From: a virus
Virus record (IMG/VR): IMGVR_UViG_3300030061_002041
Span: 1 to 21,087 of that record
DNA: 21,087 nucleotides
Strand: one strand, 5' to 3'
Each line of letters opens with the position of its first letter. The first letter of the stretch is position 1. A program made the translations under genes and the position numbers. This document shows, one piece after another, positions 1,854 to 17,510 of this stretch. The notes below the pieces were generated by a model. The model was given only the letters and a program-made list of their open reading frames with translations, was not told the origin of the DNA and searched no databases.

Positions 1854-2095
1854 TGCCTCTTAAAAAATCTCAAAGGTCATTAAAAAAATGGACAGGAGAA
1901 AAATGGACTACTCCTAGCGGAAAAAAATCTTCTAAGACTGGTGAAGTTTACGCACCAAAAGCTCAAATAAATAGACTAAAATCAACCTCTAAAGGCAGAA
2001 GCAAACTTGCAGCAGCTAACAGAAAAAAAAGACAAGCTACTGCTAAAGGTAAGCAACATGCTAGACATGGTTTACATAAAGGAAAAAAAAGATAA
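1853..2095 (+). CDS. Small basic conserved phage protein (80 residues)
   Basis: An extremely cationic protein, around a third Lys plus Arg. Blocks include LKKWTGEKWTTPSGKKSS, GEVYAPKAQINRLKSTS and GKQHARHGLHKGKKR. Proteins of this kind, with the KKWTGEKWTTPSGK motif, recur in cyanophages and pelagiphages; I recall them under a DUF label (possibly DUF5872) but cannot confirm the number. Low complexity and charge suggest nucleic-acid contact. It is coupled by one-base overlaps to the basic protein upstream and to the nuclease downstream. Confidence 0.65.
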   Translation: MPLKKSQRSLKKWTGEKWTTPSGKKSSKTGEVYAPKAQINRLKSTSKGRSKLAAANRKKRQATAKGKQHARHGLHKGKKR

Positions 2096-2517
2096 TGTAT
2101 GAATATAGTTGTAAAGTTGATAGAGTTGTTGATGGTGATACTATTGATGTTGTTTTGGACCTTGGCTTTGATATTTTATATCGTTGTAGAGTTCGTCTTT
2201 ATGGTATTGATACCCCAGAAAGTAGAACTAGAAACAAAGATGAAAAAGTTAGAGGTAAATTAGCTGGTGAATTTTTAAAAAATGCTGTTAAAAAAGGTAA
2301 AAAAGTTATTATTGAAACTAAATTAAAAGATTCAAAAGGCAAATTTGGTAGAGTTTTAGGTAATGTTGTCGTAGATGGAATAAATATTAACCAGTCTATG
2401 ATAAATGAATACTTAGCAGTAGCTTATTTTGGTCAAAGTAAAGATGACATAGAAGCAGAACATTTAGTTAATAGAGAAAAACTTATAGAACTAGGCAAGT
2501 TTACACCAGTAGAATAA
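2095..2517 (+). CDS. Staphylococcal-nuclease-like (thermonuclease) endonuclease
   Basis: A 140-residue single SNase domain, which cuts DNA and RNA by Ca2+-dependent phosphodiester hydrolysis. The family signature is complete: DGDTIDV (13-19), RVRLYGIDTPES (32-43) and KFGRVLG (83-89). The catalytic residues of S. aureus nuclease, Arg35, Glu43 and Arg87, correspond to Arg34, Glu42 and Arg86. The metal-site aspartates correspond to Asp15 and Asp39. The domain looks active. There is no signal peptide, so it should act in the host cytoplasm, probably degrading host DNA for nucleotide recycling. It overlaps both neighbours by one base. Confidence 0.9.
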   Translation: MYEYSCKVDRVVDGDTIDVVLDLGFDILYRCRVRLYGIDTPESRTRNKDEKVRGKLAGEFLKNAVKKGKKVIIETKLKDSKGKFGRVLGNVVVDGININQSMINEYLAVAYFGQSKDDIEAEHLVNREKLIELGKFTPVE

Positions 2518-2867
2518 TGGATGCAGTAGTTCAATTAATTAATGAAGTTGGCTTTCCAATAGCAGCAGCAATAGGTCTTGGTTTATTTATCTGGAAGCTT
2601 ATTAATAAAATTATTGATGGTATGGAAACTAAGGTAGATGTACTTGATGAAAAAGTATCAGCACAAATATCTGAAATAGAACAAAGGTTAGGTCAAAAAT
2701 TAGACTCACAACATGGAATATTAGTAGCTCTTATAGATAGAGTTCGTTCTGTAGATAATGAAATAATTAGACAAGACACACTTTTAAAAACTATATTAGG
2801 TGTACCACAACTAATGCATACTGATAGATTAGCAAAGGCGGATAGAGATGACCAAAGGAAAGATTGA
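2517..2867 (+). CDS. Membrane-anchored coiled-coil protein, possible holin-like
   Basis: This encodes 116 residues. Residues 12-30 are hydrophobic (GFPIAAAIGLGLFIWKLIN), a single N-terminal membrane span. The remainder is a long charged helix (about 33-85) with heptad-like spacing, such as VDVLDEKVSAQISEIEQRL, ending in a basic/acidic tail. The arrangement resembles BhlA/UviB-type holin-like proteins and is common beside nucleases and endolysins in marine phages. The gene ends just before the curli cassette and marks its left boundary. The lysis role is inferred from topology, not from a diagnostic motif. Confidence 0.6.
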   Translation: MDAVVQLINEVGFPIAAAIGLGLFIWKLINKIIDGMETKVDVLDEKVSAQISEIEQRLGQKLDSQHGILVALIDRVRSVDNEIIRQDTLLKTILGVPQLMHTDRLAKADRDDQRKD

Positions 2868-2889
2868 ATCTTCAGAAGAAGAAAAAAAT

Positions 2890-3348
2890 ATGATAATTAA
2901 AGTAGTTGCTGTTATAGGTGCACTATTATTTGTTGGTATATTTGCACAAAACCTTTGGGCAGATACTATAACTTTTAAATTTAAATCTCCTAGCTTTAAT
3001 GGTGTAGGTACATCTTCTCATTACTTAACTATAGAAAATCAAGAGTTTAGTCGTAAGCTAACAATTAAAGAAGAAATAAAAGCTTTACAAGAAGAAATAG
3101 AAAGAGAGAAAGAAAACTCTACACTTGCTAGATTTATGCGTAACTTAGAATCAAGAGTCTATGCAGAATTATCAAGACAGTTAGTAAATAACTTATTTGG
3201 CGAAACACCACAAAGCTCAGGAACAATAACCTTAGAAGGTAATACTATAGAATATACAAGCGATGGTGTAACTTTAACACTTAAAATAACGGAAGCAGAT
3301 GGAACAGTTACTGAAATTACGATACCTATTGGCACTTTTACTTTCTAG
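2890..3348 (+). CDS. csgF: CsgF-like curli assembly factor
   Basis: Start at ATG 2890 is preferred over the in-frame ATG 2848. It gives a textbook Sec signal peptide (MIIK, a hydrophobic core, then QNLWA) cut before DTITFKFKSPSFNG. This matches the E. coli CsgF context, where SWA precedes GTMTFQFRNPNFGG. In E. coli the first ~35 mature residues sit inside the CsgG channel as a second constriction, and the rest is exposed outside to hold the nucleator. Here a long helical segment follows (about 50-90, ending YAELSRQLVNNLFGE). A beta-rich C-terminus then matches the CsgF end (GNTIEYTSDGVTLTLKI, TVTEITIPIG). The protein has 152 residues, slightly longer than E. coli CsgF. Its 3' end overlaps csgG by 50 bases. 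Confidence 0.85.
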   Translation: MIIKVVAVIGALLFVGIFAQNLWADTITFKFKSPSFNGVGTSSHYLTIENQEFSRKLTIKEEIKALQEEIEREKENSTLARFMRNLESRVYAELSRQLVNNLFGETPQSSGTITLEGNTIEYTSDGVTLTLKITEADGTVTEITIPIGTFTF

Positions 3349-4171
3349 CTGTTCTATATTTAATCAATTTGAAGATACATACGAACAAAGATTTGAAAGA
3401 AATAACATTGTAAGAATATCCGAATTACAATCTAAAGAATTAGCTAATGTAAAAAAACCAATAATTAAACCTGTAGTAGCTGTATATCCTGCAGCATTTA
3501 CTGACCAAACAGGTCAGCGTAAAAGTAACAGCGAGTTTGCTTTATTTAGTACAGCAATAACACAACAGCCTAATGCTTTACTTATAAGAGCTCTTAAACA
3601 CGCAGGTAATGGTGATTTTTTTACAGTAGTTGAAAGAGTAGGTTTAGATAATTTAACAAAAGAAAGACAATTAATAAGGTCTGCTAGAGAACAATCTTTA
3701 TCAGATGAAGAAAAAAAACAAGCACTTAGACCTTTATTATTTGCAGGAGTTTTAATTGAAGGAGCTGTTATAGCTTATGAAACTAATCTAACTACAGGTG
3801 GTATAGGAGCTAGATATTTAGGTATTGGTTCTAGTGCCCAGTATAGAGAAGATAGTGTAACAACGACTTTAAGAATGGTATCAGTAGCCACAGGTGAGAT
3901 ACTAATAGAAGTAATGACTGAAAAAACTATATTTAGTTATGGAAAATCAGAAGATGTATTTCGTTTTATAGAAGCAGGAACAGAACTTGTTGAAATAGAA
4001 ATGGGTAATTCCAGGAATGAATCAACAACAATAGCATTAACAAAAGCTATTGAAAGTGCTGTATTAGAAATAATTAATGTCGGTTATGACAGGAGTTTTT
4101 GGAAACATGAAGAAATTGAAATTAATGAGCCTGAGTGTGATGCTGATTGCATTAACAAGTTACGCGGCTGA
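3299..4171 (+). CDS. csgG: CsgG-like curli secretion pore, outer-membrane lipoprotein
   Basis: CsgG forms a nonameric outer-membrane channel that exports unfolded curlin. The N-terminus has a lipoprotein signal with lipobox LSSC (Cys18). Alignment with E. coli CsgG is clear along the length: AVYPAAFTDQTGQRK, NALLIRALKHAG, TVVERVGLDNLTKERQLIR, GAVIAYETNLTTGGIGARY and the DRSFW end (DRGLW in E. coli). The family usually has about 260-280 residues; this has 290. The constriction loop differs: Phe56 aligns with Phe83, but Asn55 aligns with Leu82 and Tyr51 has no aromatic equivalent. The signal peptide is encoded within the 3' end of csgF, and the last 65 bases are shared with the curlin-like gene. 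Confidence 0.93.
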   Translation: MEQLLKLRYLLALLLSSCSIFNQFEDTYEQRFERNNIVRISELQSKELANVKKPIIKPVVAVYPAAFTDQTGQRKSNSEFALFSTAITQQPNALLIRALKHAGNGDFFTVVERVGLDNLTKERQLIRSAREQSLSDEEKKQALRPLLFAGVLIEGAVIAYETNLTTGGIGARYLGIGSSAQYREDSVTTTLRMVSVATGEILIEVMTEKTIFSYGKSEDVFRFIEAGTELVEIEMGNSRNESTTIALTKAIESAVLEIINVGYDRSFWKHEEIEINEPECDADCINKLRG

Positions 4172-4838
4172 TAATGAAATATATGTAGACCAGTCAGGAA
4201 CTGGTGCAAATATAGACTTAGAACAATTAGGTATATCAAACATAATTGGTGGTTTAAATTCTACTGCAGGGTCTTTAAATGCATTTGATTTAGATGGTGC
4301 TACTATGACACTTGATATTAATATGATTGGTAATACCAATAAATTTTTAGGGGATATAAACGCTACTACTTTTACAGGATTATATAATTTTACTGGAGAT
4401 ACAAATACTTTTACGATACAAGTAGACCCAACTAATACATATAGTTCTGCAGGTTCTGACCAAAATATAGCAGTTACAGGTAGTAGTAATACATTTACCT
4501 TAAATCAAGGTACTACAGCAATAGCAGCAAACTTAAATTTAGATTGGATTATTCAAGGTTCTAGCAACACAGTAACATCAAATATAAATATTGATGGTGC
4601 TACAAACTATATGGATATAGATGGTTCTGATAATACAATAAATTATACAGGTACTGGTGTTAATGCTTCAGCAGGTGGATATTTTTGGCTAGACCATACA
4701 GGCGGTCAAAGAACTTTTAACATACAACAACTGAGTACCCAAGATAATGACTGGCTTAAAATTATATCAATCGGTGGTAATGCTTCTTCTACTGTCTGTG
4801 TTATTCAAAACGACCAAGGTACAAGCACAAGCTGTTAA
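4107..4838 (+). CDS. Secreted curlin-like repeat protein (probable amyloid subunit)
   Basis: ATG 4107 is chosen over 4077 because AGGAG lies at 4091-4095 and it gives a clean Sec signal (MKKLKLMSLSVMLIALTSYA, cut before ADNE). Residues 25-45 read as a curlin repeat, with Q-x-G-x-x-x-N (29-35) followed by Q-x-G-x-x-N (40-45). Further degenerate units with hxGxxNxh occur at Gly75, 97, 125, 151 and 173, the spirals then being 22-33 residues long and rich in N, T, S, G and I. The tail has SIGGNASS, Cys231 and Cys243. It lies directly after csgG and is probably its cargo, a CsgA analogue. The repeats are looser than in enteric CsgA, so an alternative is a non-amyloid beta-solenoid. Confidence 0.75.
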   Translation: MKKLKLMSLSVMLIALTSYAADNEIYVDQSGTGANIDLEQLGISNIIGGLNSTAGSLNAFDLDGATMTLDINMIGNTNKFLGDINATTFTGLYNFTGDTNTFTIQVDPTNTYSSAGSDQNIAVTGSSNTFTLNQGTTAIAANLNLDWIIQGSSNTVTSNINIDGATNYMDIDGSDNTINYTGTGVNASAGGYFWLDHTGGQRTFNIQQLSTQDNDWLKIISIGGNASSTVCVIQNDQGTSTSC

Positions 4839-5865
4839 TATTGGAGATATATCTGAACTAAATGGTTCAGCACAAATAGTAAGAGATAAACCATTAGATG
4901 CCGAATTAAAATTTTCTATACAAAGTAATGATGAAGCTATTACTACTAATGGAAGAATGGCTATTACATTTCTTGATGATTCTGTTGTAAAACTTACTGA
5001 ACACTCACAATTATTAATAGATGAATATATTTATGACCCTGACCCATCTAAAGCAAAAATGGCTCTTACCTTTGGTCTTGGCACAGCAAGATTTATTACA
5101 GGCAATCTAAACCGCATAGATAAACAAAACATATCTCTTAAAACACCTACAGCTAATATAGCTATTCGTGGAACTGATTTTACGGCTACAGTAGATGAAT
5201 TAGGTCGTAGCCTTATAATACTGCTACCAGACTCTCTAGGACTCTCTAGTGGCGAAATAGAGGTAGTTACTGCTATGGGAACAGTTTTACTTAGCAAACC
5301 TTACGAAGCAACTACAGTAAGCGTATTTGAATCAGCACCAAGCAAACCAGTTATATTAGATTTAACATTAGATGTAATAGACAATATGTTAATTGTTACA
5401 CCTCCTAAAGAAGAAACTGTTATAGAAGAAGAAGCTACAAGCACACAAACAGATAGCGTACTTGATTTTAACGACTTAGATATAGACTATCTTGCAGAAG
5501 ATTATTTAAAAGAAGATAGCTTAGAATTTACAGAACTAGATATAAATTATCTTGATGTAAATTACTTAGAAGATTTATTAAATGTTTTAGATGGATTAGC
5601 TATAGCTGAAGAAGAGGACCAATTAGCACAGGCTACAAGCACACAAATATCAGGGACATTATTAGGTAAAGACCCAGATACACAGATAACAACTATAATT
5701 ACAGGACAAGTTGTTAGTTTAAGAAGAAGTGTTAGCGAAAGCGTACAGTTAGATTTAGATGGAAATAATGCTTACACAGTAATATTTATACAAGATGGCA
5801 TTTCTAACATAATAAAAGTTAATGGTGGTAGTGATTCTACAATAACAATAACTCAAAGTGATTAA
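4747..5865 (+). CDS. Exported FecR-domain protein with acidic repeats and curlin-like tail
   Basis: This encodes 372 residues. An N-terminal signal peptide (residues 1-27, ending KVQA) lies wholly inside the 92-base overlap with the curlin-like gene. An internal ATG at 4780 is an alternative start with a poorer signal. Residues 30-180 are a FecR domain: ITFLDDSVVKLTEHSQL (73-89), GLGTARFITG (110-119) and TPTANIAIRGTDF (133-145). No N-terminal cytoplasmic region or later membrane span exists, so it is not a classical FecR anti-sigma factor; it should be periplasmic or surface. Residues 225-280 are acidic with a 20-residue duplication. Residues 341-372 resemble a curlin repeat (IQDGISNIIKVNGG). 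It overlaps the cyclase by one base, so the two are probably co-translated partners. Confidence 0.85.
   Translation: MTGLKLYQSVVMLLLLSVLFKTTKVQAQAVNIGDISELNGSAQIVRDKPLDAELKFSIQSNDEAITTNGRMAITFLDDSVVKLTEHSQLLIDEYIYDPDPSKAKMALTFGLGTARFITGNLNRIDKQNISLKTPTANIAIRGTDFTATVDELGRSLIILLPDSLGLSSGEIEVVTAMGTVLLSKPYEATTVSVFESAPSKPVILDLTLDVIDNMLIVTPPKEETVIEEEATSTQTDSVLDFNDLDIDYLAEDYLKEDSLEFTELDINYLDVNYLEDLLNVLDGLAIAEEEDQLAQATSTQISGTLLGKDPDTQITTIITGQVVSLRRSVSESVQLDLDGNNAYTVIFIQDGISNIIKVNGGSDSTITITQSD
5473..5568 (+). repeat. Internal 20-residue acidic repeat in the FecR protein
   Basis: Two copies of a 12-residue motif are spaced 20 residues apart within the FecR protein: DLDIDYLAEDYL (243-254) and ELDINYLDVNYL (263-274). 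The alternating D/E, hydrophobic and Tyr pattern is conserved in the protein while the DNA copies have drifted, so this is an old duplication. It could be a Ca2+-responsive or simply a spacer segment. Confidence 0.6.
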
Positions 5866-7619
5866 TGAAAAAATTAATATTACCAATACTTATAATACTT
5901 TTACTGCCATTAATATATCAGTCAACACCTACAGAAATATTAAAACTAAAAGTATTTGATTCATTTATAAAAATACCAGAACCATCAGGTAATTTTGTCA
6001 TACTAAACATAACAGAAGAAGATGTAGAGCGTGAAGGTGGCTATCCATTACCTAGAAAAAGATTAGCTGATATACAAATGGAAATTATTGGTAAAGGTGC
6101 TTTAGGAGTTGGTTGGGTTATATCTTTTCCACAAGCAGACAGAATGGGTGGTGATGAAGATTTTGGAAGGTCTTTAGGATATGCACCTTCTGTTATAGCT
6201 ATGTTTGAAGATGGTAAAGGTAATTATCCTAAGCCAACAGGAACTGTAGTGAAAGGTGAAGATAATGGTGGTATAGTATCTTTGGGAGTAAAACAAAACC
6301 TTCCTCTATTAGCAAACAATACGCTAACTGGTTTAGCTATTGCTCCCACCGAAGTTGACCAACTTGTAAGAAGAATACCTCTTTTAGTTAAAACACCTAA
6401 TAATAATTGGATTCCTAGTTTTGGCACACAAATATACAAAGCTTTGTTTGGTGTAAAGACTTACATTATAAAAACCAATAATAATGGTATAGAAGAAATA
6501 TCAATCAGAGGAATACCACCAGTTAAAACAGATAGCCTTGGTCGCAAATGGATTAGTTGGATAGATACAGAACAAACTAATTTAAAAGAAATGGATGTAA
6601 ATGGTAAGTTTGTATTTATTGGAGTTACGGCTAATGGAGTAATGCCACAAGTTGCAACTCCTGTAGGTTTATTAGAACCACATAAAATACAAGCAGCACT
6701 AGCAGAATCAATACTTATACAAGATAGTCCTTATATACCTGATTGGCATCTAGCTGTTGAACTATTAATTTTAGTGATAACAGTAACTTTTGTCTGGTTA
6801 TGTGTAAATATTTTTGGAATGACGCTAGGAATAACATTTACCAGTCTATTATTCTTTTTAACAATATTTATCGGACACTATTTAATACAGCGTGGAATAC
6901 TAATAGATGTAAGTTGGACATTAATTTCACAGTTTATAACAGCATCAATAGGTTTTTATTTAAGATTTAGAGAACAATACAAATTAAGACAACAAATTAA
7001 AAAACAATTTGAACATTATCTTGACCCAAGACAAGTTAAAAAATTACAAGATAATCCAGATTCATTAGTATTAGGTGGTGAAAGAAGATACTGCACATTT
7101 TTATTTACAGATGTAAGAGGTTTTACTGCTATGTCTGAAAAGCTAGAACCAGAAGAAGTAACTAAAATTATGAACAAAGCTTTAACAATACAAGCAGATG
7201 CAGTAAAAGATTATGGAGGTATGGTAGATAAGTATATTGGTGATGCAATGATGGCTATATTTAATGCACCATTAGATTTACCAAACCATGAAACTGCTGC
7301 AGTATTATGTGCAAAAAAAATTCAAGATAAAATTAAACAAGCTAATATTGATGTAGAGATAGGAGTAGGTGTTAATACTGGTTATGCTGTTATTGGTAAC
7401 ATGGGAAGCGAAACAAGATTTGATTATACAGCTATAGGTGATGCCGTTAATCTTGCTGCTAGGTTAGAAAGTTCTACTAAGGAAGTTGGTGAAGATATTG
7501 TTATTGGATATAATACAATTAACGCAAAAAACTTTAATTCTGAAATAATATTAAAAGAATTAAAAAGCATATATGTAAAAGGTAAAGAAAAACCTATACA
7601 AATATATACAATAAATTAA
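5865..7619 (+). CDS. CHASE2-domain class III adenylate cyclase
   Basis: An inner-membrane receptor cyclase of 584 residues, making cAMP from ATP. Residues 4-20 are the first membrane span. About 25-290 form the periplasmic CHASE2 sensor (FDSFIKIPEPSGNFVILNIT, then GKFVFIGVTA at 247-256). Three spans follow (about 296-316, 318-340 and 348-366). The cyclase domain (about 405-584) has every class III key residue: metal ligands Asp416 (FTDVRGFT) and Asp460, and adenine-selecting Lys456 (DKYIGD) and Thr522 (DYTAIGD). Asn529 and Arg533 (NLAARLES) stabilise the transition state. The Lys/Thr pair indicates ATP rather than GTP. FecR/CHASE2-cyclase neighbours are familiar in bacterial genomes, so the FecR protein may be its periplasmic partner. 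Confidence 0.93.
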   Translation: MKKLILPILIILLLPLIYQSTPTEILKLKVFDSFIKIPEPSGNFVILNITEEDVEREGGYPLPRKRLADIQMEIIGKGALGVGWVISFPQADRMGGDEDFGRSLGYAPSVIAMFEDGKGNYPKPTGTVVKGEDNGGIVSLGVKQNLPLLANNTLTGLAIAPTEVDQLVRRIPLLVKTPNNNWIPSFGTQIYKALFGVKTYIIKTNNNGIEEISIRGIPPVKTDSLGRKWISWIDTEQTNLKEMDVNGKFVFIGVTANGVMPQVATPVGLLEPHKIQAALAESILIQDSPYIPDWHLAVELLILVITVTFVWLCVNIFGMTLGITFTSLLFFLTIFIGHYLIQRGILIDVSWTLISQFITASIGFYLRFREQYKLRQQIKKQFEHYLDPRQVKKLQDNPDSLVLGGERRYCTFLFTDVRGFTAMSEKLEPEEVTKIMNKALTIQADAVKDYGGMVDKYIGDAMMAIFNAPLDLPNHETAAVLCAKKIQDKIKQANIDVEIGVGVNTGYAVIGNMGSETRFDYTAIGDAVNLAARLESSTKEVGEDIVIGYNTINAKNFNSEIILKELKSIYVKGKEKPIQIYTIN

Positions 7620-7632
7620 TTTTAGGAGTTTT

Positions 7633-8112
7633 ATGAAAGCAATATTAAAAAACATAGTAGGAGCAGTAGCACCTACAATAGGTTCAGCAATGGGTGGACC
7701 TCTTGGTAATATGGCTATGGGTAAAATAGCAGAAGTTTTAGGTGTATCTAATGACCAAAAATCTGTACAACAAGCAATACAAAATGCTACACCAGAACAG
7801 ATGATGGAGATTAAAAAAGCTGAACAAGAGTTTGAAGTACAAATGAAAGAGCTTGATGTAGATGTATTTAAGCTAGAAGTAGCTGACAAACAACACGCTA
7901 GAGGTATGTTTAGTAAAGATTGGACTGCTAGAATTATAGGCTTATTTACTATAGGTGGATTTATGGGTTATATATTTTTAGTAACTATACAACCACCAGA
8001 ACAAAACAGCGAAGCACTTATTAATTTAGTGCTTGGTTATCTCGGAGGTTTAGCAAGTGCAATTATTTCGTTCTATTTTGGAGCATCTAATACCAGCGAC
8101 AAAAAGGAGTAA
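7633..8112 (+). CDS. Holin of the GTA/3TM type
   Basis: A 159-residue protein with a good ribosome site (AGGAG, 7624-7628). The N-terminus is Gly/Ala-rich (APTIGSAMGGPLGN) and residues 53-90 are a charged helix. The sequence FSKDWTARIIGLFTIGGFMG (93-112) opens the first strong membrane span (about 100-119). The second span is NLVLGYLGGLASAIISFYFG (131-150), followed by SNTSDKKE. This matches the GTA_holin_3TM family (PF11351 as I recall), where a (K/R)xTRP-like motif precedes paired C-terminal spans. It would permeabilise the inner membrane for the endolysin encoded directly downstream. It is the first gene after the curli/cyclase cassette. Confidence 0.7.
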   Translation: MKAILKNIVGAVAPTIGSAMGGPLGNMAMGKIAEVLGVSNDQKSVQQAIQNATPEQMMEIKKAEQEFEVQMKELDVDVFKLEVADKQHARGMFSKDWTARIIGLFTIGGFMGYIFLVTIQPPEQNSEALINLVLGYLGGLASAIISFYFGASNTSDKKE

Positions 8113-8113
8113 T

Positions 8114-8557
8114 ATGAAAATATCACAAGAAGGTTTATCGCTAATTAAAAAGTTTGAGGGTTGTGAGCTTGAAGCTTATCGTTGTGCAGCTAATGTTTTA
8201 ACAATAGGATATGGCTCAACTAAAGGTGTTAAAGAAGGCGATACTATTACACAAGAAGAAGCTGATAGTTTATTGTTACATGAAATGGATGAGTATGAAG
8301 GTTATATAAATGACATGATAAAATCTGATTTAAAACAAAATGAATTTGATTCACTTGTATCATGGGTATTTAATTTAGGTCCATCAAACCTTTCTAGCAG
8401 TACACTTTTGCAAAAATTAAATAATAAAGATTGGGATGATGTGCCATCACAAATTAAAAGATGGAATAAAGCTGGTGGTCAAGTAAAACAAGGTTTAGTA
8501 AGAAGAAGAGAAGCAGAAGCTTTGCTGTTTGAAGGCAAAGAATGGCATGAGGTTTAA
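8114..8557 (+). CDS. Endolysin, GH24 lysozyme (muramidase)
   Basis: A 147-residue T4/P22-type lysozyme cutting the MurNAc-GlcNAc beta-1,4 bond of peptidoglycan. ATG 8114 is chosen over the upstream in-frame ATG 8057 because AGGAG (8105-8109) precedes it and it gives the family N-terminus MKISQEGLSLIKKFEG. The catalytic triad has the P1/P22-type E-8aa-C-5aa-T spacing: Glu15, Cys24 and Thr30 (LTIGYGST). The C-terminal lobe contains NEFDSLVSWVFNLG and VRRREAEALL, both typical. There is no signal peptide or SAR anchor, so it depends on a holin. It starts one base after the holin stop. Confidence 0.93.
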   Translation: MKISQEGLSLIKKFEGCELEAYRCAANVLTIGYGSTKGVKEGDTITQEEADSLLLHEMDEYEGYINDMIKSDLKQNEFDSLVSWVFNLGPSNLSSSTLLQKLNNKDWDDVPSQIKRWNKAGGQVKQGLVRRREAEALLFEGKEWHEV

Positions 8558-13813: not shown

Positions 13814-15240
13814 TGGGCGGAAGAAGTAGCGGTTCATCAGCACCAACACAAACAAAAGTAGTAAATACAGATTTACCAGAATATGTACAACCATATTTTG
13901 AGCGACTCCTACAAAGAGGAGAAGCAGAATCTAATCAACCATATACTCCATATGGTGGTGAAAGAATAGCGTATTTTTCTCCTGATGAATTAGCTAGTCA
14001 AGGCATGACTAGAGGTTATGCACAAGCAGGAACTCCACCAGAATATCAACTAGCTTCACAAAGAGCCGCTATGTTAGGTGGACCATATGGTTCTGGTTAT
14101 CAAGCTGATTATTTAGGCAATACATATGATGCACAAGGATATGGCTCTGGCTATCAAGCTGGTTTAGTAGGTTCTGATTATCAAGCAGGTATGATGGGTC
14201 CAGGTTATCAAGCACAAGGATATGCACCTACATATCAAGCAAGAAGTGCTGGACCTGATTATAATGTTTTAGGTTATGAATCTAATATAAATAGATTTAT
14301 GAGTCCTTATCAACAAGCAGTTACAGATGTAGCTAAAAGAGAAGCTATAAGACAATCTGAAATAATAGGTGATAAAACTGCTGATTCTGCAGCTATGTCT
14401 GGTGGTCTTGGTGGTTATCGTGAAGCTATTTTACAAGCAGAAAGAGAGCGTAATTTAGGTCAAGAACTTAGTGATATACAAACAAAAGGTAGTCAAGCAG
14501 GTTTTCAATCAGCACAAGCACAACTTGCAGCAGAAAGAGCAGCACAATTAGATTCTTCAAGATTTGGTCTGCAACAATTTACTGCAGAAGAACAAGCAAG
14601 ACAAGCACAAGAAAGATTTGGACAAAGTGCATATGGATTAGAAGAAGGTTCTTTCCAAAAACAAACACAATTAGATACACAAAGGTATCAAGCAGGTGAA
14701 GCTGCAAGACAAGCAGCAGCTAAATTAGGATTAACAGCAGCACAACAAAACGAAGCAGCACGACAAGCACAAGAAAAATATATGCAAAGTGCATATGCTC
14801 AATCAGAAAAATCTTTCCAAGAACAAGGAAAACAAGATATTGCTGCTTTCCAAGCTAGAGAAGCTGCTAGACAAGCACAAGAAAAACTTGGTCAATCAGC
14901 TTATGATATGTCTCAAAGATATGGTTTGGCATCTGTAGATGCTCTTAGAAATGTTGGTGGAGATATACAAGATGATGTAAGACAAAGAATAGGTGCATTA
15001 ACAGGTATAGGGCAACAACAAAGAGCAATGCAACAAGCATCTATGGATATGGGCTATCAAGACTTTTTAAGACAACAAGGATTTGGTCAACAACAGTTAG
15101 GATTCTTAGGTGGATTATTAAGAGGTGTACCTGTTCAGCCACAACAACAAATAAGCACTTTTCAACAACAACCAGGATTATTCCAAACTGCATTAGGAGC
15201 AGGATTAAGTGGACTTGGTTTATATAAAGGAATGAGTTAA
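13813..15240 (+). CDS. Repeat-rich internal virion protein (475 residues)
   Basis: The N-terminus is LPEYVQPYFERLLQRGEAES, followed by PYGGERIAYFSPDELASQGM. Residues 96-158 hold seven tandem nonapeptides starting Y-Q/D-A. Residues 160-380 are Gln/Ala/Arg-rich helix with 18- and 36-residue repeats (ARQAQE...GQSAY), predicted to be long coiled coil. The C-terminal part is Gln- and Gly-rich (FQQQPGLFQTALGAGLSGLG). No enzyme motif is visible. Position, size and composition indicate a structural or ejection protein packed in the virion. It starts one base inside the GNAT-like gene and overlaps the next gene by one base. Confidence 0.65.
   Translation: MGGRSSGSSAPTQTKVVNTDLPEYVQPYFERLLQRGEAESNQPYTPYGGERIAYFSPDELASQGMTRGYAQAGTPPEYQLASQRAAMLGGPYGSGYQADYLGNTYDAQGYGSGYQAGLVGSDYQAGMMGPGYQAQGYAPTYQARSAGPDYNVLGYESNINRFMSPYQQAVTDVAKREAIRQSEIIGDKTADSAAMSGGLGGYREAILQAERERNLGQELSDIQTKGSQAGFQSAQAQLAAERAAQLDSSRFGLQQFTAEEQARQAQERFGQSAYGLEEGSFQKQTQLDTQRYQAGEAARQAAAKLGLTAAQQNEAARQAQEKYMQSAYAQSEKSFQEQGKQDIAAFQAREAARQAQEKLGQSAYDMSQRYGLASVDALRNVGGDIQDDVRQRIGALTGIGQQQRAMQQASMDMGYQDFLRQQGFGQQQLGFLGGLLRGVPVQPQQQISTFQQQPGLFQTALGAGLSGLGLYKGMS
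14098..14286 (+). repeat. Seven tandem 27-bp / nonapeptide units
   Basis: Seven consecutive 9-codon units, at 14098, 14125, 14152, 14179, 14206, 14233 and 14260. They encode YQADYLGNT, YDAQGYGSG, YQAGLVGSD, YQAGMMGPG, YQAQGYAPT, YQARSAGPD and the degenerate YNVLGYESN. The consensus is Y-[QD]-A followed by small and Gly residues. Register is exact with no insertion, so the period is structural. Confidence 0.85.
14596..14925 (+). repeat. 18/36-residue helical repeats beginning ARQA
   Basis: Units beginning ARQA start at 14596, 14704, 14758 and 14866, that is residues 262, 298, 316 and 352, separated by 36, 18 and 36 residues. Three carry ARQAQE followed by QSAY; the second is a shorter variant (ARQAAAKLGLTAAQQNEA). 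Eighteen residues is five helical turns, which fits a regular coiled coil. Confidence 0.75.
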
Positions 15241-17510
15241 TGTCAAATTTAGTAGAACTATCAAATGAATTAGAATTTGTTCCAAAAGAACAATTAATAC
15301 AAATGTCGCAAGACCCAAATTCTACTTATCCTTCTTATTTAGTATTGTCTGAAATAAAAAGAAGAACACAAATGGAAAAAATGTATGCTGCTCAACAACC
15401 TAAACCAGAAACAACAGTATCTGATGAATTAGTAGCAGAATTTGCAGGAAGTCCATCTGGTTTAGGAGCTATGGCTCAATCATCTGATATACCAAACGCT
15501 TTCCAATCAGGTGAAATGGGTAACATGGCTCCGCCCTCTCCTTTAATGACTGCTGCTAGTGGTGGATTAACAGGCTATCAAGCAGGTGGTTTAACAGACC
15601 AAACAATAAAAGAAGCTAATGCTTTAGGTATTGATATTAAAAATTTATCTGATGAAGAAATTGTAAGACGAGTTAAGTTAGCAAATAATAAAAGAAGAAA
15701 AGATATGTTATTAGGAATGACCCCTGATGCAAATCAATTTATCTTTAATCAATCCTTACCTACTTCTCCTGAAGATTTATTAAATTTAGGACCAATACCA
15801 GCAGGATTACAAGCTCAAATAAATGCAGCAAAAGAACCAAGTAAATTTGATAAAGTTATAGAAGGTGGCACACAATTCTTTTTTGGAGACCCAAGACCAG
15901 ATGCTGAAAGACCTAATCTTGCTAGAGCTACAGATGAATTTACAGATTATTTAAGTTTAGTTCCAGGAGCAACAGCAAGTTTAAAATTAGGTGCAAGTGG
16001 TCTTAAAGCACTTATACAAGGTGGTAAAGCATTTAAACAATCAGGCAAACTTGATGACCTTATAGATTTAACTAAAGTAAATCCATCTAAAATTAATCAA
16101 GCTGATAATATTTTACCTATAGCACCAAAAACAGTAGGTGGACCACCTCCAGTACCTAGAATAGGAGGTACACCACCTCCAGTACCTAGAATAGGAGGTA
16201 CACCACCAACAAGTGGACCAACATTAGGACCAACAGTAGGACCACCAAGACCTCCAGGTACAAACTTAGTTCCACAAACAGGTACAAACTTAGTTCCACA
16301 AACAGGTACAAATTTAGTTCCACAAGGAGGTCCTTTAGCAGTTATACCTAAAGTTACAAAAGAATCTAAAGGTCTTATAAATAGAGCTGTAGATTGGATA
16401 AAAAATAATAAAAAAACTGCCTTTGGATTTGGACTATTAGGTGGAGGAATAGGAAGTGCAGCATATTATTCTGGTGAACCAGATAAAGAAGATAATGGTG
16501 CAGGCGGTGCAGGCAGCACAGCTCCAACAACAAAAGAAATTAAAAAAAGTATTGACCCATTAGACCTAGCTAAATTAGGTGGCATTATTATGGCTGCTAA
16601 AAATACAAGCGAATTAGGTCAAGGCATAACAGCATTAGCTGGTGATATACAAGAAAGAAGATATAAAGAAAAAGTATTAACTAGCAAAGAAGAACAAATG
16701 TTATATACCAGATTAAATGCTATTTCTAAAGCCATAGATGAATATACTGGAGACCAAGAAGCACCAGAATATAAAAGATTAATTCAAGCAAGAGATGCTG
16801 CCGTAGCACAAATAAATACACTTTATGGTCCAATTACTCAAGGTACTGACCCAATGAGTATATTGAATGCTAATACTATTGGAGGCACAGATACTAAAGA
16901 TACTGAAGATACTAGTTCAGGAGGTCTTGGTGGAGCATTAAAAAAATCATTTATAGCAATGAATCCTATTCTTTCATTAGGAGGAATGGGATTAAAAGCA
17001 GGATATGAATATTTAACTAAAGATGATGAAGTAAATAATACTATTATTCCACAACAAGATTTATATAATGCTTTTATAAAAAATGCACCTAATCCACAAT
17101 ATCTTACTGGCGACCCTTATATAGATAATATAATGAGAATAGAAAGTGGTGGTAGAGATGTTGTAAATGACACTACAGGAGCTACAGGTCCAATGCAAGT
17201 TTTACCTAGTACTCTTCAAGACCCTGGTTATAATATTGAACCTGCTAAAAATAATTCTGTTGAAGAAAAAATTAGAGTTGGTGTAGATTATTTTTATAAA
17301 ATGGTAGATAAATATAATGGTGATATTTTTCTTGGCACTTTAGCTTTTAATTTAGGTCCTGGTAATGTTGATACATGGTTGAATTCAGGAGGAGACATAA
17401 ACACACTTAAATCAATTACAAGTAAAGATGGCAGACAAATAGGCGAAGCTGCTTATGATTATGTAGTAAAAGCATATGGACAAGATGCTGTAAATAGAAT
17501 ATTAACTTAA
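15240..17510 (+). CDS. Virion-associated lytic transglycosylase in a large internal protein
   Basis: A 756-residue protein. The N-terminal 60 residues are helical (QLIQMSQDPNSTYPSYLVLS). A GGLTGYQAGGL motif is at 108-118, Pro/Gly tandem repeats are at about 302-363, and a Gly-rich hydrophobic span (TAFGFGLLGGGIGSAAYY) is near 391-408. The C-terminal domain (about 625-756) is an SLT-type lytic transglycosylase. It has catalytic Glu635 in IMRIESGGRD, then TGATGPMQVLPST (646-658) and LAFNLGPGNVDTWL (701-714). It should open local peptidoglycan during DNA entry, like the T7 gp16 transglycosylase. This is separate from the lysis endolysin at 8114. The domain is complete and looks active. Confidence 0.85.
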   Translation: MSNLVELSNELEFVPKEQLIQMSQDPNSTYPSYLVLSEIKRRTQMEKMYAAQQPKPETTVSDELVAEFAGSPSGLGAMAQSSDIPNAFQSGEMGNMAPPSPLMTAASGGLTGYQAGGLTDQTIKEANALGIDIKNLSDEEIVRRVKLANNKRRKDMLLGMTPDANQFIFNQSLPTSPEDLLNLGPIPAGLQAQINAAKEPSKFDKVIEGGTQFFFGDPRPDAERPNLARATDEFTDYLSLVPGATASLKLGASGLKALIQGGKAFKQSGKLDDLIDLTKVNPSKINQADNILPIAPKTVGGPPPVPRIGGTPPPVPRIGGTPPTSGPTLGPTVGPPRPPGTNLVPQTGTNLVPQTGTNLVPQGGPLAVIPKVTKESKGLINRAVDWIKNNKKTAFGFGLLGGGIGSAAYYSGEPDKEDNGAGGAGSTAPTTKEIKKSIDPLDLAKLGGIIMAAKNTSELGQGITALAGDIQERRYKEKVLTSKEEQMLYTRLNAISKAIDEYTGDQEAPEYKRLIQARDAAVAQINTLYGPITQGTDPMSILNANTIGGTDTKDTEDTSSGGLGGALKKSFIAMNPILSLGGMGLKAGYEYLTKDDEVNNTIIPQQDLYNAFIKNAPNPQYLTGDPYIDNIMRIESGGRDVVNDTTGATGPMQVLPSTLQDPGYNIEPAKNNSVEEKIRVGVDYFYKMVDKYNGDIFLGTLAFNLGPGNVDTWLNSGGDINTLKSITSKDGRQIGEAAYDYVVKAYGQDAVNRILT
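16143..16202 (+). repeat. Perfect 30-bp tandem duplication in the transglycosylase gene
   Basis: Two adjacent identical 30-base copies (16143-16172 and 16173-16202) encode PPPVPRIGGT twice. The identity at DNA level, including third codon positions, points to a recent slippage or duplication event. Confidence 0.95.
16257..16328 (+). repeat. Three 24-bp tandem units in the transglycosylase gene
   Basis: Copies at 16257-16280 and 16281-16304 are identical. The third, at 16305-16328, differs by a C-to-T change and by its last bases (ending AGGA). They encode the octapeptide GTNLVPQT repeated, a flexible linker before the Gly-rich hydrophobic span. Confidence 0.95.

Follow-up and report, generated by a model that had tools for sequence, protein, structure and literature searches.

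The IMG/VR virus record IMGVR_UViG_3300030061_002041 was analysed over its entire length of 21,087 bases (hereafter, the window) and was found to carry a curli-type (type VIII) secretion cassette, an overlapping run of six genes on one strand at 2517-7619 with a SNase-type nuclease to the left and lysis genes to the right. The run encodes a small membrane protein (hol116), homologues of CsgF and CsgG, a curlin-family protein, a FecR-domain protein and a CHASE2-adenylate cyclase (Table 1). With the chosen starts, csgF and csgG overlapped by 50 nucleotides, csgG and the curlin gene by 65, and the curlin gene and fecR by 59. An earlier note, made from the DNA alone, had described an overlapping run at 2890-7619 as a curli cassette with its own signalling pair inside a phage genome; the coordinates and the overlaps were borne out, and the presence of a curli-type export cassette in a phage was confirmed by the gene families and by the recurrence described below. 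As several relatives were found in records of 46-63 kilobases (kb), the window record is probably a genome fragment.

Export genes and their conservation

The five Pfam families proposed for the run (CsgF, CsgG, FecR, CHASE2 and Guanylate_cyc) were all matched above their curated cut-offs. The CsgF match reached 60.7 bits against a cut-off of 25.8, and the protein showed a signal-like N-terminus followed by a conserved stretch, ITFKFKSPSFNG, which could be aligned with CsgF of E. coli K-12. The N-terminal stretch is the part of CsgF that binds CsgG. The CsgG homologue matched E. coli-type CsgG structures in the PDB at 3e-45, and a lipobox-like motif was present in 88 of 110 phage CsgGs. The kinship of both proteins to those of E. 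coli, previously proposed at motif level, was thus verified by families, alignment and structure matches. Signal-like N-termini here and below, as well as the membrane helix of hol116, were called by eye rather than with a signal-peptide predictor. A CsgG homologue at 41% identity was also seen in OR851715.1, a 1,499-base record labelled Salmonella phage, which is possibly a mislabelled non-phage fragment.

The curlin-family protein was modelled by AlphaFold as a confident beta-solenoid (pLDDT 84, pTM 0.81), and the model aligned with CsgA of Pontibacter korlensis (8c50) with a Z score of 17.4 over 194 residues, at 22% identity and a root-mean-square deviation of 8.8. Curlin_rpt was detected at E <= 0.1 in 21 of the 54 family members (best, 8.6e-6), so that a curlin-repeat substrate was identified at the level of the family. 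CsgG, CsgF and a curlin substrate, the components by which type VIII secretion is recognised, were therefore all found, on the evidence of Pfam, the PDB, the relatives and the curlin model. No separate CsgB-type gene was seen in the cassette.

The CsgG search listed 79 viral loci, and the cyclase search listed 80 of the 597 stretches encoding a relative. Profiles were run on 167 loci, some of which overlapped or sat on shared contigs. The order hol116-csgF-csgG-curlin-fecR-cyclase was found in 100 of them, consisting of 95 viral loci, three on contigs of metagenome-assembled genomes (MAGs) and two in the cultured myophages HTVC008M and Melnitz, and none of the 167 loci carried all six genes in any other order; many of the remaining loci were cut by contig ends. 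This identical order demonstrated that the window was not an assembly chimera. The phage collection held no close DNA match to the window. The median ratios of nonsynonymous to synonymous substitution (dN/dS, Nei-Gojobori) between the cassette genes and their relatives were 0.09-0.17 for the six genes, and those for the SNase, lysozyme and g8560 genes were 0.13-0.18, with the window as reference and 6 to 25 pairs per gene at 80-98% protein identity. The low values indicated that all six cassette genes are under ordinary purifying selection.

The head gene hol116 is a cassette-specific gene without a kinase domain. In each of the 98 loci that extended 1 kb or more upstream of csgF, members of its profile were located at most 1.5 kb upstream and nowhere else, as one copy in 67 loci and as two in 31; none was found in 12 cassette-free relatives. 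A search of 50,697 phage records at E <= 0.01 gave matches in six records only, all of them records of the cassette carriers HTVC008M and Melnitz. HisKA/HATPase kinase domains were absent from all 38 members tested, 37 of which matched PHROG 18771 (unknown function) and 12 of which weakly matched the holin PHROG 4898 (best, 4.6e-5). A relation to CRP-901 gp41 was considered and none was seen. Judging from position and copy number, hol116 is probably the gene labelled histidine kinase ('HK, sometimes two') by Wittmers et al. 2022 (PMC9599517; this and the other papers are cited here from parts of their texts). Of the phage flanks claimed in the earlier note, the nuclease on the left and the lysozyme on the right stood, but the 'holin-like' gene at 2517 showed weak similarity to a holin PHROG and travels with the cassette.

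Table 1. Features of the cassette and its flanks in the window
Feature	Position	Strand	Evidence and remarks
SNase-type nuclease	2095..2517	+	PF00565, 2.7e-15; left edge of the cassette slot; also in cassette-free relatives
Head gene hol116, 116 amino acids, cassette-specific	2517..2867	+	One transmembrane helix and coiled coil, judged by eye
CsgF homologue	2890..3348	+	PF10614, 2.1e-16; alternative start 2848
CsgG outer-membrane pore homologue	3299..4171	+	PF03783, 3.1e-49; lipobox-like LLSSC
Curlin-family beta-solenoid, signal-like N-terminus	4107..4838	+	AGGAG 5' of ATG 4107; alternative start 4077
FecR-domain protein, signal-like N-terminus	4780..5865	+	PF04773, 3.2e-9; alternative start 4747
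FecR domain inside the FecR protein	4942..5199	+	Residues 55-140
Curlin-type C-terminal tail of the FecR protein	5761..5862	+	...IQDGISN...STITITQSD
CHASE2-adenylate cyclase	5865..7619	+	CHASE2 about 5895-6779; class III cyclase about 7092-7613
Holin-like membrane protein, right edge of the slot	7633..8112	+	PHROG 1544, 1.5e-27 (function unknown)
Phage lysozyme (endolysin)	8114..8557	+	PF00959, 2.7e-46

The membrane protein at the right edge of the slot was 26% identical to a protein of phage DSL-LC04 annotated as holin (single-comparison E 1e-6). Elsewhere in the window, a 230-residue protein at 1022-1714 matched PHROG 3704 ('ferredoxin', 1.4e-27) and no Pfam family, positions 3-218 held the cut end of a 2OG-Fe(II) oxygenase (PF13759, 7.7e-11), and the virion-region protein at 15240-17510 contained a transglycosylase SLT domain (2e-11).

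The FecR protein and the CHASE2 cyclase

PF04773 was found in all 59 representatives of the phage FecR proteins, and the model of the domain matched PupR (6ovk) with a Z score of 11.5. In a comparison with the retention-module fold of LapA-type adhesins, 5ix9 ('cell surface anchoring domain'), a structure linked to such adhesins, ranked below PupR, with a Z score of 8.0 over 72/76 residues at 21% identity. No cytoplasmic anti-sigma region preceding a membrane helix was found, and the protein opens with a signal-like sequence, as judged by eye and from the model. At the other end, all 59 representatives close with hydrophobic-x-hydrophobic-x-Q in the last few residues, as does CsgB of E. coli. 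This C-terminal strand motif was present in all 116 complete unique phage FecRs and in none of 17 bacterial FecR relatives or eight FecRs from SAR11-family hosts; its rate in shuffled sequences was 1.7%. The other phage families of the loci mostly had none (g8560, 7/62; Curlin, 2/104; g15240, 2/3; g657, 1/44), and with a slightly wider motif a strand was found in the last 20 residues of 53 of the 54 curlins. In addition, a curlin-like core (hydrophobic-x-Q-x-G-x-x-N/S/T) was located 26-27 residues from the end in 46 of the 59 FecRs, the proportion of shuffles with such a core anywhere being 5.7%. When compared with the curlin profile, the C-terminal slice of FecR ranked first of 17 (E 0.0075).

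The tail was kept across copies with about 30-35% overall identity, although the counts show conservation and not independent origins, as the phage FecR sequences are related. A literature search found no paper that combines a curlin repeat with FecR. Judged on its sequence features, the protein looks like a fibre-linked export partner and not a FecI-type regulator, and a curlin-type tail on a supposed regulator suggests how the system may work. The proposal that FecR acts as a signalling partner gained support in one respect, its pairing with CHASE2, but not in another, as a curlin-type tail was found instead of a FecI-type cytoplasmic part. Among other proteins encoded by such cassettes, the product of HTVC008M at L002:10638-11963, annotated 'hypothetical', contains a PA14 domain (2.7e-6) and Curlin_rpt repeats (5.2e-8), both above cut-off. 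It is likely to be an adhesin-type curlin substrate, and thus at least one other cassette protein pairs a head domain with curlin repeats.

The protein encoded downstream of FecR matched CHASE2 (1.2e-24) and Guanylate_cyc (3.0e-19). With the catalytic positions assigned by known motifs, the two metal-binding Asp residues, the Lys and the Arg were each present in all 136 sequences, and the Asn in 133; the purine position was Ser/Thr in 133 of the 136, which we take to indicate the class IIIb, bicarbonate-responsive type of cyclase. The phage cyclase looks catalytically intact and is predicted to be active. Among loci with room that had not been fetched through the cyclase, it followed FecR in 66 of 67. 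The exception was a Maricaulis MAG contig (L162:214-4795), in which fecR of a cassette without cyclase was followed directly by the holin-like gene and the lysozyme gene.

The same two domains were found side by side in bacteria. The search covered 385 genomes, all in the class to which a Maricaulis MAG is assigned (taken to be Alphaproteobacteria); 140 of them had a relative of the phage FecR and 186 had CHASE2. Twenty-nine of the 148 FecR matches listed were located within 10 kb of a listed CHASE2, when about 1.1 were expected from random placement in 3.5-Mb genomes (two phage rows excluded), demonstrating that FecR/CHASE2 is a recurrent bacterial gene pair. In the bacterial relatives examined, the FecR domain lay nearer the N-terminus and the proteins were often large; RTX repeats were matched in three of five checked, one of them just below cut-off.

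The host side was examined with 118 genomes from the family of a 'Candidatus Pelagibacter' MAG, a placement made via one MAG and with genomes that are possibly incomplete. CHASE2 was found in 12 of these SAR11-family genomes, and two of the 12 were phage cassettes (L168 and L431). The other ten (L421-L430) all matched the L250 protein over its SpoIIE part (Pfam SpoIIE, 2.8e-33), and a FecR gene was found within the fetched stretch in eight of them, one of the misses being on a short contig. No earlier report of this native FecR/CHASE2-SpoIIE pair was found in the literature search. The only cyclase matches above cut-off in the family were those of the same two phage cassettes. The cNMP_binding domain was detected in 5 of the 118 genomes, leaving 113 without it, and in none of 16 cassette phage records. 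Given this scarcity, the usual cAMP-CRP route (cAMP, cyclic AMP) is unlikely in such a host, which leaves a different receptor, another mode of action of the nucleotide or a different actual host as explanations. The signalling pair proposed in the earlier note was accordingly supported by the co-location of FecR and CHASE2 in bacteria, but no recognisable cAMP receptor turned up in the 16 phage records or, for the most part, in the SAR11-family genomes.

The cassette slot and the role of the cassette

Among newly numbered loci with room, the cassette was carried by 32 of the 33 found through g8560 and by 46 of the 57 found through the nuclease. Nine of the 12 exceptions were examined, and in all nine the slot between nuclease and lysozyme held two other proteins with signal-like N-termini, namely an Asn/Thr-repeat protein of about 375 residues and a protein of about 750-800 residues with a long acidic region (L378:1569-4894, L400:8431-12266 and L321:3321-7244, and also L390, L393, L395, L399, L403 and L404). 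A small protein preceded the pair in L400, L403 and L321. Pfam gave nothing above cut-off for nine alternative-slot proteins, including the L378 and L400 pairs, and a search of the phage collection with the larger L378 protein gave no match at E <= 0.001. The occurrence of another exported pair in the same slot indicates that the curli cassette is one of at least two alternative cargoes. Rz/Rz1-type spanin pairs were seen upstream of lysozyme in the cassette-free loci L400 (12845-13547) and L321 (7843-8542), the former pair falling in PHROGs lysis families; in the window, no spanin pair was seen between cyclase and lysozyme.

As for the phages concerned, the terminases of two near-complete cassette relatives (the L038 and L327 records) showed 51-61% identity to HTVC023P-type phages and 58% to DSL-LC04, which is listed with a gammaproteobacterial host. 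The DNA polymerase A search gave matches in 3 of 10 records. The g8560 protein did not point to a single host, its six top rows (91-100% query cover) being at 32-38% identity and coming from phages of several hosts.

The best reading of these data is that selection maintains the cassette as an intact phage form of curli (type VIII) secretion, which would decorate infected cells with curlin. CsgG and CsgF would form an outer-membrane pore through which a curlin-type beta-solenoid reaches the cell surface during infection. The FecR protein, which appears to be exported to the periplasm with a curlin-type strand at its C-terminus, would most likely bind, nucleate or anchor the curlin chain at the pore, a place that is filled by CsgB in E. 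coli. The CHASE2 receptor cyclase probably senses the state of the FecR protein, since FecR and CHASE2 form a recurrent bacterial gene pair. The phage may benefit through surface remodelling, such as aggregation of hosts or blocking of the adsorption of rivals. To the scheme as a whole, in which curlin is exported to the cell surface, the tailed FecR anchors it, nucleates it or reports on it, and CHASE2 reads FecR, we would give an even chance.

Several observations weigh against this scheme. The window curlin alone gave no significant Pfam match, and SufB solenoids outscored CsgA at the top of the fold ranking of its model (Z up to 17.8, about 5% identity), so that the solenoid alone is not diagnostic; Foldseek returned nothing for this model at E <= 0.001, and CsgA was ranked high by the second aligner only. 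The match between the curlin profile and the FecR tail was modest, as the next-best FecR slice had an E of 0.04. Pfam Curlin_rpt was found in none of the 59 FecRs, and the FecR-tail profile scored weakly against other curlins and not significantly against CsgA or CsgB. Model confidence was low at the C-terminal end of FecR (pLDDT about 50-64), where fold matches had Z scores of about 6 or less. CsgE, CsgC and CsgD matched none of the 25 window proteins scanned, and CsgE was also reported absent from phage type VIII secretion modules (PMC9599517). With Melnitz, no clumping was observed by Buchholz et al. 2022 (PMC9004378). Finally, FecR and the cyclase occurred together almost always, so that only a single MAG contig speaks for FecR acting without the cyclase, and the nucleotide would be made in a family with few recognised cNMP receptors.

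The main competitor of curlin export is a role in lysis, in which CsgG and CsgF have been turned into an outer-membrane pore, or a trigger resembling a pinholin, and help to depolarise or permeabilise the envelope at lysis, as proposed by Buchholz et al. partly from the synteny in Melnitz, which they read as release timing (PMC9004378). In this phage group the cassette directly precedes the holin-like and lysozyme genes; in 39 of 43 CsgG-fetched loci with room, no more than 3 kb separate the end of the cyclase gene from a lysozyme gene, and the head gene shows the weak holin-PHROG similarity mentioned above. However, the fetched stretches of HTVC008M and Melnitz contained no annotated lysis gene beside the cassette, several neighbours being hypothetical; with the myophage cassette located elsewhere, closeness to lysis genes marks this group of phages and may not be inherent in the cassette. 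The claim that the amyloid is secreted just before lysis was not supported by these stretches, although Buchholz et al. favour lysis timing. Moreover, a bare pore would need neither curlin nor FecR, yet purifying selection strongly conserves both (median dN/dS about 0.12), and in sister phages the slot contains exported proteins but lacks csgG. We therefore regard a lysis role as unlikely.

It is less probable still, in our estimate, that an ungated CsgG admits larger nutrients or cofactors during infection, as put forward by Zaragoza-Solas et al. 2020 and Wittmers et al. The missing CsgE gate agrees with this uptake function, but the conserved CsgF, the curlin, the tailed FecR and the PA14-curlin protein are left unexplained. 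A regulatory function, in which an iron-citrate-type FecR acts with a cyclase that raises cAMP on the curli genes and with a histidine kinase (Wittmers et al.), is very doubtful. The FecR domain and a catalytically intact class III cyclase do co-occur in nearly every locus with room, but the signal-like start of FecR without an anti-sigma part, the putative histidine kinase without a kinase domain and the rarity of cNMP_binding in the SAR11-family genomes and its absence from the cassette phage records all argue otherwise. An assembly chimera or a set of functionless passenger genes has negligible probability, in view of the recurrence in many contigs and cultured phage genomes and the low dN/dS.

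Returning to curlin export, a more specific version can be outlined, which we consider unlikely. The phage may have repurposed a bacterial surface-sensing pair as a sensor of the export state: the curlin-tailed FecR would join the chain at the CsgG pore and be read by CHASE2 in the inner membrane, and a nucleotide signal new to a host without a known cAMP receptor would replace or bypass the FecR/CHASE2-SpoIIE pathway of the host. The pre-lysis slot would then be an exchange site for alternative phage-made cell-surface systems. Why lytic ocean phages carry curli genes has drawn several guesses but few experiments. Three features speak against the picture of an iron regulator plus histidine kinase plus cAMP, namely the curlin tail on FecR, the cassette-specific head gene and the lack of a recognised cAMP receptor, and the pair of exported protein and receptor, with a phosphatase-type output in some SAR11-family genomes, provides a lead for bacterial signalling.

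Comparison with known systems

The cassette has already been published, and the window is a further example of a described module. Nine HTVC023P-type genomes as well as myophages were reported by Wittmers et al. to carry it, FecR and adenylate cyclase included (PMC9599517), and the earlier note was right in pointing to HTVC023P-type clusters; Zaragoza-Solas et al. had described the myophage curli cluster together with the idea of 'sibling capture' (PMC7029224). Gene content and order in the window agreed with the HTVC023P-type module, that is, small gene(s), csgF, csgG, curlin, fecR, an optional second curlin and the cyclase. The interpretation differs in two respects: the gene(s) before csgF were treated as histidine kinase, whereas no kinase domain was found in hol116, and FecR was treated as an iron regulator, whereas a curlin-type tail was found here. 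The alternative cargo of the slot and the FecR/CHASE2-SpoIIE pairs of hosts are not part of that account in the text cited (PMC9599517). Within a literature search of papers apart from their supplements, five points are additions of the present analysis: the curlin-type tail of FecR, the new label of the head gene, the pairing of FecR/CHASE2 with SpoIIE outputs in SAR11-family genomes, the absence of a recognisable cAMP receptor and the second cargo of the slot.

The clusters of HTVC008M and Melnitz share the core genes, with two head-gene matches per record. Unlike the window, they have a second curlin between fecR and the cyclase (PA14 and repeats in HTVC008M, repeats in Melnitz) and another genome position, the fetched stretches being without annotated lysis genes. 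The csg operons of E. coli K-12 have in common with the phage cassette CsgG, CsgF and a curlin-type substrate, to which the phage adds FecR, the cyclase and the small membrane protein. A bacterial curli operon as a ready-made donor of FecR and CHASE2 was considered and rejected: neither was found in five alphaproteobacterial csgF/csgG loci (L189-L192 and L195), a small sample scanned with phage-built profiles only, in agreement with the earlier statement that bacterial curli loci do not normally include FecR and a cyclase. One more bacterial CsgF match (G185) was weak and below cut-off.

The closest parallel to the signalling half of the cassette is the bacterial FecR/CHASE2 pair, in which an exported FecR-domain protein likewise adjoins a CHASE2 receptor. 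The BiofilmReg operon of Burkholderia encodes an exported LysM-FecR protein and a CHASE2 histidine kinase (PMC5192318), and in Sinorhizobium a plasmid carrying CyaD1 minus CHASE2 led to constitutive cAMP production (PMC5498481). The curlin-type tail of the phage FecR was found in none of 25 bacterial copies checked. The output joined to CHASE2 also differs, being a histidine kinase in Burkholderia, SpoIIE in ten SAR11-family genomes and a cyclase in the phage.

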